DNA of 64,000 nt from an uncultured Tateyamaria sp. (lineage in GTDB: Bacteria; Pseudomonadota; Alphaproteobacteria; Rhodobacterales; Rhodobacteraceae). The stretch is from contig NZ_CANLAG010000001.1 in the NCBI RefSeq assembly GCF_947488715.1, positions 434,001-498,000 on the forward strand, written 5' to 3'. Below, piece by piece: positions 9,175 to 42,047 of the stretch. The notes beneath the pieces were generated by a model. The model saw nothing but the letters and a program-made list of their open reading frames with translations. It was not told the DNA's origin and did not search any database. Numbering within the stretch: the first letter of the stretch is position 1; every line of letters starts with the position of its first letter. The translations under genes were made by a program, and so were the position numbers.

Positions 9175-10041
9175 GTGAACGATGTGATGCAAAAAACAGA
9201 ACGCGATTTCACTGACGGCAACCTGTTGAAGACATTTGTCGAGATCGCGGATTGCAAGAACCTGACCCTCGCGGCCTCTCGGCTGAACCGAAGCCAATCT
9301 GCGATCAGTGTGCAACTGCGCAAATTGGAGGAAGAGTTGGGCACATCGCTGTTTGTGCGCGATGGCAAAGGCATGTCCCTATCGCCAAGCGGGGAAAAGT
9401 TGTTGCCTGCCGCGCGGCGTAGTCTGGCAGAATTGGCGGGGATCAAGTTGCTTTTTGCAGCACCTTTGAACGGTCGGATACGGGTCGGTATTCCAGAGGA
9501 TTTTGACGAGGGCGTGCTGGAAAAAGCGCTGTCCGATTTTCGCCGATCCAATCCGGGTGTCGAGGTTGTCGCGACATCGGGCTGCACCGCTGGTTTCGCG
9601 GATGCGATCCGGGCGGACGAATTGGATATTGCGGTCTGCTCTGCCGTCACAACGGTGCCGGGCGAGGTTTTTCGCGAACAGCAAGCCGTTTGGGCTGCAA
9701 GCGAGACGCTCAATCTCAAGGCAAATGATCCCGTGCCGCTTGCGATCATTGACCATGGATGCTGGCTAGCGGAACTGCCAAAGGTATCGCTGGACCAGCA
9801 AGGGCGTGCCTACAACGTCGCCTTTGCCTGCACGGGTATCATGAGCCAAAAGGCTGCGATCCGGGCCGGGTTCGCCGTTGGCGTCATTTATCAAGACAGC
9901 GTCGAAGAGGGCATGAAGATACTCACCGCAAAAGACAATTTCCCACCTCTGCCAAAGTTCAAAAGGTCCATTTTCATTGGCGACAACGCGCCGCGAGACT
10001 TGGCTGAAGCCATGGCGGATGCGATACGCCGCGCGGCCTAG
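9175..10041 (+). CDS. LysR family transcriptional regulator
   Basis: The 288-residue protein has an N-terminal winged helix-turn-helix at about 18-75 (LTLAASRLNRSQSAISVQL, then FVRDGKGMSLSPSGEKLL) and a LysR effector domain after residue 95. The start may be the GTG at 9175 or the ATG at 9187; the fold begins after both. It is divergent from the NTF2-like/phosphatase/sulfurtransferase/azoreductase operon with 73 bp between starts, the classic LysR arrangement, so it probably controls that operon. Its effector is unknown. The 200 bp that follow hold nothing I can identify. Confidence 0.88.
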   Translation: MNDVMQKTERDFTDGNLLKTFVEIADCKNLTLAASRLNRSQSAISVQLRKLEEELGTSLFVRDGKGMSLSPSGEKLLPAARRSLAELAGIKLLFAAPLNGRIRVGIPEDFDEGVLEKALSDFRRSNPGVEVVATSGCTAGFADAIRADELDIAVCSAVTTVPGEVFREQQAVWAASETLNLKANDPVPLAIIDHGCWLAELPKVSLDQQGRAYNVAFACTGIMSQKAAIRAGFAVGVIYQDSVEEGMKILTAKDNFPPLPKFKRSIFIGDNAPRDLAEAMADAIRRAA

Positions 10042-38168: not shown

Positions 38169-38782
38169 TGGCGCGCCTCGGCAAGGATGTGTTTCTGCAT
38201 GCAGATGTGGAGGTGACCGAGACCACGTTTGGTCACTATGTCGAAGTCGGCAAGGGATCGCGGATCGTCTATGCGACATTGGGCGACTATTCCTATTGTG
38301 ACCGCTATGCCGACATTGCGAACGCGACTGTGGGCAAGTTTTCCAACATTGCGAGCTTTGTCCGGATTGGGGCGACAGATCACCCGCTGCATACGGCGAG
38401 CTGTCACCACTTTCTCTACCGGTCAGATGACTATTGGGACGATGCCGGGCGGGACGAGGCGTTCTTTGCCCATCGCAGGTCCCGCCGCGCGACCGTGGGC
38501 CACGATACCTGGCTGGGGCATGGGGCGATGATAAAGCCAGAAGTGATTGTGGGTGATGGTGCCGTGGTCGCAGCGGGCGCGGTCGTGACCAGGGACGTTG
38601 CGCCTTACACGATTGTGGCGGGCACCCCTGCCGTGCAATTGCGTGACCGGCAGCCAGAGGGCATTGCCGAGCGCCTTGTGGCGCTGGCGTGGTGGGACTG
38701 GCCCCACGACCGTTTGCGCGGCGCTTTGGATGATTTTCGCAGGCTGCCCGCCGAAGCGTTTCTGGAGAAATACGGAGGCTGA
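38168..38782 (+). CDS. hexapeptide-repeat acetyltransferase of phosphonate clusters
   Basis: The 204-residue protein has the left-handed beta-helix pattern of xenobiotic/chloramphenicol acetyltransferases. The repeats are seen in VGDGAVVAAGAVVTRDVAPY, preceded by the active-site region IGATDHPLHTASCHHF and HDTWLGHGAMIKPEVI. A subgroup (TIGR03308-like) is linked to phosphonate operons and may acetylate aminoalkylphosphonates. The one-base overlap with phnE supports that role. No C-P lyase genes follow in this window, so catabolic genes must be elsewhere if present. Confidence 0.82.
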   Translation: MARLGKDVFLHADVEVTETTFGHYVEVGKGSRIVYATLGDYSYCDRYADIANATVGKFSNIASFVRIGATDHPLHTASCHHFLYRSDDYWDDAGRDEAFFAHRRSRRATVGHDTWLGHGAMIKPEVIVGDGAVVAAGAVVTRDVAPYTIVAGTPAVQLRDRQPEGIAERLVALAWWDWPHDRLRGALDDFRRLPAEAFLEKYGG

Positions 38783-38788
38783 TGGGCA

Positions 38789-39388
38789 CTATGGCACGGT
38801 GATGACCTGTCCGGTGCCTGCGCCTTCGACGGCTTTGACATAGGCGCGTCCAACATCCTCGGCCGGTACCGGCGCGTGACCTGGAAAGAGTGCACCATAG
38901 CGGTCCTGCGACGTGTCGAGCAGGCCGGGGCTGACCACGTTCAGCCGGAGGCCGCGTGGCATTTCAATGGCCGCGCCGGAAACGAACCCCGACAGCGCGC
39001 CGTTTGCCGTGGCCGCGCCGATGCCTCCGCGCACTGGATCGCGGTCAAGGATCCCGCTGGTTAGGGTAAAGGAGCCCGCGTCGGCAACAGTGTTCAGTCC
39101 GCACAGGACCAGATTGATCTGGCCCATCACCTTGTGTCGCATGCCGTAAAGCATCGTGTCGTGGTCGTGATCCGCAAGCGGGCAAAACCGCACCTCACCT
39201 GCAGTGCTGACAACGGCATCGACCTGCCCGATATGGGAGAACATCGCAGTCACTGCCGCAGCGTCCGACATATCGAGTGTCACATCCCCGCGTGAGCGGC
39301 CCGCACGGATCAGGTCATGCCGCTCGCCCAATGCGGCGCAGGCCGCGCGCCCGACGTCACCATAGGCGCCAACGATAAGAATCCTCAT
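38789..39388 (-). CDS. short-chain dehydrogenase family protein
   Basis: The 199-residue protein has an NAD(P)-binding N-terminus MRILIVGAYGDVGRAACAAL and VVSTAGEVRF. The later part reads FTLTSGILDRDPVRGGIGAA and LRLNVVSPGLLDTS. The usual Tyr-x3-Lys catalytic pair is not visible: the equivalent position reads GIGAATANGALSGF, as in the short SDR subgroup without classical tyrosine. It may be an NADP-binding sensor or a weak reductase. Its start lies inside the MerR gene (32-nt overlap), so the two are probably translated from one message. Confidence 0.75.
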   Translation of the reverse strand: MRILIVGAYGDVGRAACAALGERHDLIRAGRSRGDVTLDMSDAAAVTAMFSHIGQVDAVVSTAGEVRFCPLADHDHDTMLYGMRHKVMGQINLVLCGLNTVADAGSFTLTSGILDRDPVRGGIGAATANGALSGFVSGAAIEMPRGLRLNVVSPGLLDTSQDRYGALFPGHAPVPAEDVGRAYVKAVEGAGTGQVITVP

Positions 39389-39746
39389 GCCATGCCTCCA
39401 TGATCTGCTCATAGCGCTCAATCTTGCGCCCCAGCAGCGCACGGCATTGATCAAGGTGCTGCTGCTGTTGATCGAGATGGGCGCCATGCGCTTCCAACAT
39501 CTCTTTTCGGTCGGCAATGGTCGCATCGCCATGGCGGTACAGATTGGCAAACGCCTTCATCCGTGCGGTGGGCTTGCCGGTGTTGCGCAGGGACGCGAGC
39601 AAGACAAACCAGTCCAGATTTTCAGGGGTGAACCGACGTTGCCCATCTGGTGCCCGCGCGATGGGCGGACAGACGCCGGATTTCTCATAGTAGCGGATGG
39701 TGTCGATGCTCCGCCCGCATTTCCCGGAGACTTCTGTAATCTTCAT
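39357..39746 (-). CDS. MerR family transcriptional regulator
   Basis: The 129-residue protein has the MerR winged helix at the N-terminus (MKITEVSGKCGRSIDTIRYY, then EKSGVCPPIARAPDGQRRF) and a glutamine-rich coiled-coil dimer helix (DQQQQHLDQCRALLGRKIER). No C-terminal metal-binding cysteine pair is present, so a metal sensor is unlikely. The pairing with an SDR gene is common for MerR proteins that respond to small organic or electrophilic compounds. The ATG at 39746 is well placed. Confidence 0.87.
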   Translation of the reverse strand: MKITEVSGKCGRSIDTIRYYEKSGVCPPIARAPDGQRRFTPENLDWFVLLASLRNTGKPTARMKAFANLYRHGDATIADRKEMLEAHGAHLDQQQQHLDQCRALLGRKIERYEQIMEAWHEDSYRWRLW

Positions 39747-39819
39747 GGTTGGGTCCTTTCACAGCATCGCCAAAAGGACCCTAGCAAGCTGGAGTTGCTC
39801 CAGCGCAAGCGGAAAAATC

Positions 39820-40052
39820 TGGTGGATCTGCGCAACCGAACCGCTGCATTCAGGGTGACGGCGCAGCCGATGCCCGTCGGTCGGCGCCCACGGATGCAGC
39901 TTTAACATGTCTTGGTGGCGAGGAACGGTGGAGCATAGCGGGATCGAACCGCTGCACTCAGGGTGACGGCGCAGCCGTTGCCCGTAAGTCAGCGCCTGCG
40001 GATGCAGTTGTCACATGTCTTGATGGCGAGGAATGGTGGAGCATAGCGGGAT
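39820..40052 (-). repeat. 108-bp tandem repeats downstream of tRNA-Ala, each with a copy of the tRNA 3' end
   Basis: Two adjacent 108-bp units (39837-39944 and 39945-40052) match at 96 of 108 positions with no gaps. The junction phrase CGAACCGCTG recurs at 39837, 39945 and 40053, the last inside the tRNA gene. Each unit carries a copy of the last 29 bases of the tRNA gene (TGGTGGAGCATAG onwards). The copy at 39926-39954 matches 28 of 29 and that at 39820-39846 is degenerate. Spacers are 79 bp. The layout resembles the rtT repeats behind Escherichia coli tyrT. Confidence 0.85.
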
Positions 40053-40109
40053 CGAACCGCTGACCTCCTGCATGCCATGCAGGCGCTCTCCCAGCTGAGC
40101 TAATGCCCC
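40034..40109 (-). tRNA. tRNA-Ala (anticodon GGC)
   Basis: The 76-nt gene on the minus strand folds as a normal cloverleaf. The acceptor GGGGCAT pairs with ATGCTCC (one G-T pair), the D arm contains AGCTCAGCTGGGAGAGC, the anticodon stem CCTGC/GCAGG encloses the loop ATGGCAT (anticodon GGC), and the T arm contains GGTTCGATCC. CCA is encoded at the 3' end (40036-40034). It reads GCC and GCU alanine codons. The repeats described at 39820-40052 lie just downstream. Confidence 0.95.
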
Positions 40110-40199
40110 ATTCCTGGTTGGCCGTTTGGCCGTGCGCCGCTGATTAGGCGCTTTGCCGAACGGGATCAAGCGAAAAAGACCCCGTTCGACCCTTGGTTT

Positions 40200-40529
40200 T
40201 CAGGACTCGTCGTCCTCGGATGCGACGTCGGCCAGTTCTTCGAGGGGGACTGTATCTTCGTCCTCTTCGTCGTCCAGCAAATCGTCGTCCAGTTCCACAT
40301 CGACGTCATCATCGTCGAGCACCTGATCCTCGTCCTCGGACGCGGTTGCAGCCTTGGCTTTGGCTGTTACGGCATCTTCGGCGTCGGCTGCAATCATGCG
40401 CGTCTTGGTGCTGTCCAGTTCGACCACATCGCCTGTATAGGGGCTGACGATGGGATTCCGGTTCATGTCATAAAACCGTTTACCCGTGGTTGGGCACAGG
40501 CGTTTGGTGCCCCATTCTTCCTTTGGCAT
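40200..40529 (-). CDS. TIGR02300-type protein, acidic C-terminus
   Basis: The 109-residue protein has the conserved N-terminal block MPKEEWGTKRLCPTTGKRFY, then DMNRNPIVSPYTG, and a very acidic C-terminal tail (about 68-109, runs of Asp and Glu such as DDDDVDVELDDDLLDDEED). The family is widespread in alphaproteobacteria and has no firm function; a single CP motif makes a zinc site uncertain. The ATG at 40529 starts the conserved block. The tRNA-Ala gene is 90 bp downstream on the same strand. Confidence 0.88.
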   Translation of the reverse strand: MPKEEWGTKRLCPTTGKRFYDMNRNPIVSPYTGDVVELDSTKTRMIAADAEDAVTAKAKAATASEDEDQVLDDDDVDVELDDDLLDDEEDEDTVPLEELADVASEDDES

Positions 40530-40672
40530 CGGTGATCCTTCGTGTCTCGTGTGGCCTGCGGTGCGATGGCGCGACAGCGCGCGGTGCAGGACGTCCATAT
40601 TGCGGCGATTCTGGGCAAGTGCCATAAGGCCGGGACGGAGTCAAAGCCTTATGACGCAATGGGGGAAATGGG

Positions 40673-41365
40673 GTGGCGGAGCATGTGCTTCAAGGGGATC
40701 CGGATATCCCGCTGACCTTGCGCCGATCTGCGCGGGCGCGGCGCATCACATTGCGTATTTCCCAATTGGATGGACGGGTGACCCTGACAGCGCCAAATGC
40801 GGTGCCAACGAACGAGGCGCTGGCCTTTGCCCACCAGAAAGAGCGGTGGATTCGCAAGCATTTGGAAGCGCGACCCGGTGAAGTGCGTGTCACCGTTGGC
40901 GCAGTTCTGCCCGTCGAGGGGATGCCGCGGCGGATTGATCCGGGGCGCGGCCGTACTGTTGAGCTGACGGATGACGCCCTTCTGGTGCCGGGAAAAGTAG
41001 ACGCGGTGCCGCGTCGCCTGCTGGGATATCTCAAGGCGCATGCACGTGACCGTTTGGCCGCCGCCTGTGACGTTTATGCAGCGCGGTTGGGTCAGTCGTA
41101 TTCCGGCCTCAGTATTCGAGACACCCGGTCCCGTTGGGGGTCATGTTCCTCGACTGGGCGGCTGATGTTTTCGTGGCGCTTGATCCTCGCGCCGGTGCCC
41201 GTGCTGAACTATGTGGCGGCACATGAGGTTGCGCATCTGGCCCAGATGAACCACTCGCCCGCGTTCTGGGCCGAGGTTGAACGCATCCACGGACCCTATA
41301 CCGAAATGCGTCGGTGGTTGCGCACGGATGGCAACGACCTGCACCGCTACCGATTTGGCGATTGA
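40673..41365 (+). CDS. YgjP/DUF45 family metal-dependent hydrolase
   Basis: The 230-residue protein has the zinc-peptidase-like motif HEVAH (His184 to His188) with a third ligand probably His194 in MNHSPAFW. The upstream hallmark IRDTRSRWGSCSSTGRLMFS is the other signature of this family. These proteins resemble SprT and M48-like peptidases; some were reported to have nucleotide pyrophosphohydrolase activity, so the reaction is unsettled. The start appears to be GTG at 40673, since ATGs just upstream are out of frame. Confidence 0.85.
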   Translation: MAEHVLQGDPDIPLTLRRSARARRITLRISQLDGRVTLTAPNAVPTNEALAFAHQKERWIRKHLEARPGEVRVTVGAVLPVEGMPRRIDPGRGRTVELTDDALLVPGKVDAVPRRLLGYLKAHARDRLAAACDVYAARLGQSYSGLSIRDTRSRWGSCSSTGRLMFSWRLILAPVPVLNYVAAHEVAHLAQMNHSPAFWAEVERIHGPYTEMRRWLRTDGNDLHRYRFGD

Positions 41366-41390
41366 CCCACGGTTCTGCCTGTGATCACAA

Positions 41391-42047
41391 ATGCCCATGC
41401 AAGTATCGCCACGCCCAAGAGACAGCACAACAGCCGCCCATGATCGCGTGTATCGGCGGTTGCGGACACGGATCATGCACGGCGACATCCCGCCGGGGCA
41501 GGCCCTGACACTGCGCGGGATTGGCAAACAGTACGATGTGTCCATGACACCTGTGCGCGAGGCTGCCCGCCGCCTCGTGGCTGAGGGTGCGTTAACGCTG
41601 TCGCCGTCCGGGCGCATGTCGACGCCCGAGCTGTCGAATGAACGGATCGAGGAATTGGCCGCGCTGCGGGCGTTGATCGAGGTCGAACTCGCAACGCGGG
41701 CGTTGCCGCGTGCGCATCTTGCATTGATTGAGCGGCTTCAATCCATCAACGGCGCGGTGGCCGAGGCTGTCGCGCACCGTGATGCCGTGAGCTATATCCG
41801 CACGAACCTCGAATTCCATCGCACACTGTACCTGCGGGCGCAGGCACCCGCGATGCTGGCCATGGCAGAGACCGTGTGGTTGCAGATGGGACCGACGATG
41901 CGGTCGCTCTATGGCAGATTGCGGCGCACTGAGCCGCCGCGCTATCACCGTCTGATCATTGCGGCCCTGCGTGCGGGGGACGAGCCGGGGTTGCGGCTTG
42001 CGGTCCGATCCGACGTCACCCAAGGGTTGCGTATGCTCGCCACCTGA
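41391..42047 (+). CDS. GntR family regulator with FCD domain
   Basis: The 218-residue protein has a GntR winged helix (about 17-80, RVYRRLRTRIMHGDIPPGQA and VSMTPVREAARRLVAEGAL) and an all-helical FCD effector domain with the metal-ligand pattern RTNLEFHRTLY. FCD regulators often sense carboxylates. There is no clear target next to it; the following gene is an orphan histidine kinase on the same strand 62 nt away. The start may be 41391 or the ATG two codons later. Confidence 0.88.
   Translation: MPMQVSPRPRDSTTAAHDRVYRRLRTRIMHGDIPPGQALTLRGIGKQYDVSMTPVREAARRLVAEGALTLSPSGRMSTPELSNERIEELAALRALIEVELATRALPRAHLALIERLQSINGAVAEAVAHRDAVSYIRTNLEFHRTLYLRAQAPAMLAMAETVWLQMGPTMRSLYGRLRRTEPPRYHRLIIAALRAGDEPGLRLAVRSDVTQGLRMLAT

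Follow-up and report, generated by a model that had tools for sequence, protein, structure and literature searches.

Tandem repeats behind the tRNA-Ala(GGC) gene of an uncultured Tateyamaria sp. are real, conserved and wider in distribution than first described. Each repeat unit opens with a spacer of variable sequence, continues with an imperfect hairpin that is conserved, and closes with a copy of the final ~28 nt of the tRNA behind which it lies; the start of the tail copy forms the 3' base of the hairpin, and the 5' arm pairs with that start. Five tRNA species (Ala, Thr, Val(TAC), Val(CAC) and Met) are involved, and each carries its own tail. We consider it quite possible, while stopping short of calling it probable, that these are conserved trailer hairpins whose tail copies arose in the DNA through duplication promoted by the hairpin, in a family of the rtT kind.

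Trailer units in the window and own-tail copies in the genus

The window is the whole stretch of DNA analysed, 64,000 nucleotides in length, and its array lies between a MerR-family regulator gene and the tRNA-Ala(GGC) gene (Table 1). An earlier note on this DNA, made from the sequence alone, described a 108-bp period marked by CGAACCGCTG at 39837, 39945 and 40053. These coordinates hold on direct reading of the sequence, and Tandem Repeats Finder reports a period of 108 with 2.1 copies, 89% matches and 0% indels at 39837-40062, in agreement with the two gapless, 89% identical units of the note. No other array is reported by this program within the window. The repeated tail corresponds to the final 28-29 nt of the gene, and its copies are as the note described them, with the near one matching the last 29 nt of the tRNA at all positions except one, the far one degenerate, and a spacer of 79 bp. 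In hairpin 1 the 5' arm reads CGCTGAC, complementary to GTCAGCG in the tRNA, and the 3' arm continues into the tail copy. A consensus scan finds neither an intrinsic terminator nor a sigma-70 promoter near the array. A Rho-type, C-rich spacer was rejected as a special feature; the spacers have more C than G, no more so than the other tRNA trailers of the same genome (P 0.16).

Table 1. Features of the tRNA-Ala(GGC) locus, in window coordinates. The R1 and R2 scores of both hairpins are marked as by construction because both models were built with them.
Feature	Coordinates	Strand	Basis
tRNA-Ala(GGC) gene, CCA encoded	40034..40109	-	ARAGORN; Rfam RF00005, 61.3 bits
Trailer unit 1 (108 bp): variable spacer, hairpin and tail copy	39926..40033	-	Sequence; Tandem Repeats Finder; unit measurement
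Hairpin 1	39949..39996	-	Covariance model R1 76.1 bits, R2 69.8 bits (by construction)
Tail copy 1	39926..39954	-	28/29 identical to tRNA 3' end, including CC of CCA
Trailer unit 2 (106 bp), more degenerate	39820..39925	-	Sequence; Tandem Repeats Finder
Hairpin 2	39841..39888	-	R1 63.3 bits, R2 56.9 bits (by construction)
Tail copy 2, degenerate (CAGCGGTTCGGTTGCGCAGATCCACCA), 2 nt shorter than copy 1	39820..39846	-	Sequence
MerR-family regulator, next gene after array	39357..39746	-	Pfam MerR_1, E 1.4e-11
FYDLN_acid family gene, other side of tRNA	40200..40625	-	Pfam PF09538, E 6.4e-27

Among the 39 tRNA rows of the same genome, three are followed within 700 nt by a copy of their own final 25 nt: Ala(GGC) with one mismatch, Thr(GGT) with none, and Val(TAC) with two copies having none and five. 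The best match for 35 other rows has 9-13 mismatches of 25 over the same distance (one of these rows offers only 125 nt to scan, and one further row has no downstream sequence). The own-tail copies are beyond chance.

A query with the array against 60 relatives yields matches extending past the tRNA in genomes of the same genus. The search of related genomes that the earlier note proposed finds tail copies behind tRNA-Ala(GGC), on the same contig, in 12 of 20 Tateyamaria genomes and none in six; the count leaves out G016 and G018, in which the gene is at a contig end and similar units end another contig, and disregards a weak match with seven mismatches 613 nt behind the Ala gene of G011. The note had named the absence of any repeat in close relatives as part of what would make the array a local slippage scar, and repeats are present in these relatives. 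Its link to tRNA-Ala stands insofar as copies do lie behind that gene, and falls insofar as it is not specific to Ala. With loci fetched by the tRNA alone, so as to avoid a hairpin-based choice, and a threshold of at most seven mismatches of 25, own-tail copies are found behind Thr(GGT) in 11 of 19 genus genomes (G005, in which ARAGORN calls no Thr tRNA, being left out), behind Val(TAC) and elongator Met in eight of 20 each, and behind Val(CAC) in five of the ten of 20 genomes in which it was read. The reverse-complement control for the Thr, Val and Met tail copies gives 0 of 69.

The covariance model of the hairpin, R1, finds matches at E<=0.1 in 18 of the 20 genomes of the genus. Outside tRNA-Ala, 33 of the 41 R1 loci fetched contain a tRNA, namely Thr(GGT), Val(TAC), Val(CAC), Met(CAT) and once Tyr, and the remaining eight are four dispersed palindromes, three RNase P RNA genes and one stray unit.

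Two of these tRNAs have features of their own. There are two main versions of tRNA-Thr(GGT) in the genus, differing in the acceptor stem and elsewhere, with a third in G012 (L218-L237), and the Thr(GGT) tail copies observed match the version of their own genome. The elongator-type tRNA-Met (CAT) has a C5-A68 acceptor-stem mismatch in all 20 genus genomes read (L126 1501-1577; L268-L287).

Beyond the genus, a pattern scan of 84,980 species genomes returns 17 stretches, in Tateyamaria, Yoonia, Roseicyclus, Sulfitobacter, Marimonas and other Rhodobacteraceae. Seven of the nine loci examined have a tRNA (Met, Thr or Val) with a copy of its own tail; at the Sulfitobacter locus, Val-type units adjoin sequence in which ARAGORN calls no tRNA, and the remaining locus, L191, is the stray unit of G015 discussed below. 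A second model, R2, has matches in seven of 248 family genomes at E<=1e-4, five of them linked to tRNAs (G000, G010, G092, G095 and G113), one behind a superoxide dismutase gene (G230) and one a palindrome with no tRNA called (G024). In a scan of the class, two of 289 genomes match, one being the genome of the window itself and the other lacking a called tRNA. These family and class counts are lower bounds, because the strict filters lose weak matches. Among the open-licence literature matches listed, there is no description of such repeats behind Rhodobacterales tRNAs.

Unit layout, hairpin pairing and the choice between RNA and DNA

Unit length varies little. Of 65 units measured, 48 are 112-116 bp long in a range of 108-123 bp, with spacings of 95-134 only being counted, which excludes the 172-204 bp units of G003, G006, G007 and G011. 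Marimonas lutisalis (G113) was entered twice in the unit, identity, arm and array-end analyses, and the duplicate is removed from the counts of 65 units and of 47 first units. The hairpin lies about 36-48 nt from the tRNA. In the longer units (172-204 bp) there are extra palindromes of a kind that is also dispersed in the genomes. Dispersed GC-rich double hairpins (CCCCTCTCGCGCATCG..CGATACGCTGCCGGGGCGACGCGC..) are seen away from tRNAs (L119-L122; L053 541-800), and they have also been incorporated into the long tRNA trailer units.

Identity between genomes is 0.80-0.90 in the 5' arm, 0.72-0.79 in the core and 0.83-0.93 in the tail copy, in a comparison that favours conserved cores since its loci were mostly found with the hairpin model. 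Spacer identity is 0.51-0.56 versus 0.46-0.48 for shuffled sequence, which is near saturation, and the spacer was rejected as a conserved RNA because its identity is close to the shuffled level. Of 47 arrays, 24 have a first tail copy without mismatch over 25 nt. Many of the arms and bulges, and the decay of tails at single loci, were read by eye from the sequence.

The pairing of the hairpin covaries. Across 59 distinct hairpins, in an alignment fitted to model R1 (the pair counts of A3, an alignment fitted in this way, lean toward the R1 structure), the covariation score is 0.276 versus 0.108 (sd 0.008) for shuffled alignments and at most 0.078 for slid partners; 85% of the cells pair, and 10 of 18 pairs include changes on both sides. 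For 20 mostly Ala hairpins the score is 0.130 versus 0.083 shuffled and up to 0.108 slid. MAFFT and RNAalifold, with no structure supplied, recover the base stem in four of the five tRNA families, Ala being the exception.

The 5' arm is complementary to the T-stem of the tRNA that it follows. For Ala this arm is CGCTGAC (7 nt in five of 12 genomes and shorter elsewhere), for Thr TCTCGAC, for Val(TAC) and Met CCCGAC, and for Val(CAC) CCTGAC. The Thr arm tracks its T-stem between genera, with CGGAG and CCGGAC in Roseicyclus versus GAGAG and TCTCGAC in Tateyamaria. The mean complement is 6.14 nt to the tRNA in question versus 5.02 nt to other tRNAs; in 11 of 49 arrays (one genome counted twice) it beats all other tRNAs and in 27 it ties. 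Single arm matches have shuffle P values from 0.005 to 0.6. In 44 of 47 first units the longest complement to the T-stem region of the same tRNA ends beside the core, at unit position 46-58 (it is shifted in G014 Ala), and this constancy of position is stronger evidence than the individually weak arm matches.

Folding itself is unremarkable. The mean energy z is -0.58 over 61 copies, with the fold closing on the start of the copy in 42 of them, and the transcript of a tRNA with its array folds no better than shuffled sequence (z -0.49).

The earlier note offered two readings of the array, one of which was that the long trailer is processed into small RNAs. In its full form, the units would be RNA genes, the trailer being cut at the CCA copies into ~110-nt small RNAs with tRNA-like tails that serve as regulators or decoys. 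In favour of this are the strong covariation, the constant orientation and distance behind tRNAs, the near-constant unit length with a saturated spacer, and the annotation of rttR of E. coli as a small RNA in its sequence record. We nonetheless think this reading unlikely, given the unconserved spacer, the loss of the tail copy from G005 Val(TAC) and G001 Thr with the hairpin match retained, the finding of no Rfam family except tRNA at the gathering score in the array loci searched, and the kinds of mismatch in the stem. Selection on an RNA stem should give more G-U than A-C, whereas the hairpins have G-U:A-C of 18:17 (two columns omitted, one with frequent U-G and one mostly unpaired) versus 32:3 in the stems (acceptor and T) of 38 different tRNAs from the window's genome, a yardstick in which an Asp gene truncated at a contig end contributes one of the three A-C cells and all four 'other' cells. 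The difference has a P of 0.0004, or 0.036 with all columns and the conserved U-G included (45:17 versus 32:3), both values being rough because the hairpin rows are related.

With G-U not preferred, the pairing appears to be maintained without preference for the transcribed strand, as template switching between the arms could do, and this strand symmetry argues against a purely RNA role. Template switching is reported both to create hairpins and to maintain them (PMC8794818). Such switching at quasi-palindromes, together with unequal exchange, might maintain and spread the units as neutral DNA with no function at all, a reading that the strand-symmetric pairing and the decay of arrays would fit; many of these tRNAs in the genus have no tail copies, so the copies are dispensable. 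We regard this too as unlikely. The core and arm are conserved despite a near-saturated spacer, the same tRNAs are involved in several genera, and mismatches and bulges are conserved; pure template switching cannot by itself explain the core, as it would erase the conserved bulges and internal loop. Two claims are therefore kept separate, namely that the hairpin is something that is maintained and that the tail copies arise at the DNA level.

Array dynamics, possible mobility and proposed origin

Neighbouring units are fully identical in G010 Ala, in G092 Met and in a Yoonia metagenome-assembled genome (MAG). The interpretation in the earlier note is partly supported; its second reading, repeated recombination at the tRNA end, is favoured by near-identical neighbours and by the strand-symmetric pairing. 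Array ends clearly reach into the hairpin in G010 and G011 Ala, G009 and G010 Thr, and G015 Val(CAC). What follows the last CCA is unlike the unit (score <=4) in 26 of 49 arrays, a total in which one genome counts twice. That arrays always end at the hairpin apex had been the impression by eye; this rule was rejected, the ends being mixed.

Duplication promoted by the hairpin, the reading that we tentatively prefer, may be pictured as follows. The hairpin would be an old REP-like palindrome lying ~36-48 nt behind five tRNAs and kept by selection, most likely through a role in the tRNA transcript, as a 3' trailer hairpin that serves 3'-end formation as a stop or a site of processing. Tail copies would be DNA-level by-products, in which replication stalls at the hairpin, the stalled nascent end slips back to the tRNA T-arm through short homology, and the slipped end re-copies tail, spacer and hairpin to give a tandem unit. 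Later exchange of the tRNA tail with its copies would add, remove and homogenise units, and template switching between the hairpin arms would preserve the fit between the 5' arm and the T-stem of each tRNA. Slippage from a hairpin-stalled strand back to the gene end is, we infer, the simplest process that can be named. Two results sit awkwardly with it: the G-U counts speak against selection on a stem at the RNA level, which makes the step of trailer-hairpin selection weak, and slippage predicts a partial end unit reaching into the hairpin, which the mixed array ends do not all fit.

In G015 the Met and Val(TAC) units are identical at 83 of 86 positions outside their tails, and the tails differ. 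A stray complete unit with a Met tail is present in the same genome (G015 C10; L163, about 9498-9616), where it adjoins an apparent start codon at CCACCAT, and its contig carries a relaxase gene (Pfam Relaxase, E 2.1e-08). A search for the empty site yielded none that is clean, the flank aligning with G017 and G008 and stopping at the apparent start codon. Carriage by plasmids, phages or viruses was rejected, as no match was found in plasmids, phages or viral contigs (the last searched with the Val/Met/Thr-type pattern only). A Y1 (RAYT-type) transposase was likewise rejected as the mover: G000 has no Y1_Tnp domain, and the domain occurs at E<=0.001 in four of 20 genus genomes, three over the cut-off, and is absent from 16.

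T-arm to CCA is a segment commonly used for attachment by integrases, and attachment-site copies at tRNA 3' ends are copies of this part downstream of the gene. The units could on these grounds be footprints of site-specific integration, with tails that tyrosine integrases of mobile elements left behind as copies of their attachment sites, and the copied segment, the stray unit on a relaxase contig beside an apparent start codon and the shared Met and Val(TAC) unit of G015 would all suit this. It is an improbable reading, in view of the near-uniform unit length and the lack of matches in plasmids, phages or (for the Val/Met/Thr-type pattern) viral contigs; units of 103-204 bp are also too short to hold an integrated element with an integrase between the copies. 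The trailer units share with attachment-site copies of integrated elements the T-arm-to-CCA copy downstream of the tRNA, and differ from them in being tandem and short, with a conserved hairpin at near-fixed spacing. A related idea is that the units are gene-less cassettes, each made of a tRNA tail and a folded single-strand recombination site, the latter an imperfect hairpin whose extrahelical bases are conserved and which resembles integron attC sites in kind. A recombinase would add these ~114-bp cassettes to tRNA genes, remove them and move them from one such gene to another. If true, this idea would explain the strand-symmetric yet imperfect pairing, the array ends at CCA, the identical neighbours, the shared Met and Val(TAC) unit of G015 and the stray unit on the relaxase contig; we hold it to be very improbable.

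Comparison with rtT repeats and other palindromes

The parallel that the earlier note drew with the rtT repeats of E. coli not only holds, it goes deeper, since in the E. coli units, too, one arm can pair with the beginning of the copy. The tandem rtT units that follow tyrV in E. coli K-12 measure 178 bp, each closing with an exact copy of the tRNA 3' end (19 of 19 nt, at 178, 356 and 534). A 10-nt arm in the first unit, GGGGAAGGAT, repeats the start of the copy in reverse complement (reached in 4 of 2000 shuffles), and the same letters are visible in the second and third units. The K-12 stretch examined has four RtT matches, three behind tyrV and one in the tyrT-tyrV spacer (L212 664-795). 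The trailer units described here differ in unit length (~114 bp, versus 178 bp), in the copy (~28 nt from the T-stem 5' strand, versus 19 nt from the T-stem 3' strand) and in range, with five tRNA species in several genera compared with the single operon of the E. coli repeats (tyrT/tyrV; RF00391, rttR, tpr). The RtT model (RF00391) that gives the four matches in E. coli gives none at E<=5 in the window array region (38700-41500).

Two properties can be taken to mark repeats as rtT-like: the units directly follow a tRNA in tandem and each closes with its 3' end copied, and, a property derived here, one arm can pair with the first part of that tail copy. The Rhodobacteraceae units have the first; the second is seen beside the core in 44 of the 47 first units, and in E. 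coli as well. Judged by layout and sequence, they are best regarded as an rtT-like family that lies outside the RtT sequence family of Rfam.

The superoxide dismutase locus of G230 follows the same plan behind a protein gene. The 3' end of the gene is tandemly duplicated (L165 1459-1630) with arm, core and copy in the same order: the gene end is GGTCAATTGG, the arm is CCAATTGACC (1 of 2000 shuffles), the core resembles that of the tRNA units, and the copy starts with GGTGAATTGG. In all three settings (the tRNA units, E. coli and this gene) the copy begins at the end of a hairpin, and by the Rfam model the E. coli sequence is unrelated.

To our knowledge, the rtT repeats of E. coli have looked like a one-off. 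Their plan of a tail copy, an arm matching the start of the copy and a hairpin between them is found again in several genera, behind five tRNA species, and also at one protein gene, which suggests a general way for hairpins behind genes to generate tandem copies of gene ends. Arrays ranging from 0 to 3 units across the species of one genus provide natural replicates for studying the role of a long trailer.

REP elements are alike in being imperfect palindromes, and related palindromes are dispersed (L119-L122) and built into the 172-204 bp units. The trailer hairpins are unlike REP elements in that an arm matches the neighbouring tRNA, in their location behind tRNAs and in the lack of a Y1 domain in G000. 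A REP survey counts rttR as REP-bearing (PMC12306157).

We also note that model R1 matches the 5' part of RNase P RNA (RF00010) in G006, G007 and G011 (L109, L111 and L117). The segment involved, CTTACGGGCATTGGC...GCCAATACCCTGAG, resembles the trailer hairpin, either through a shared palindrome or by chance.
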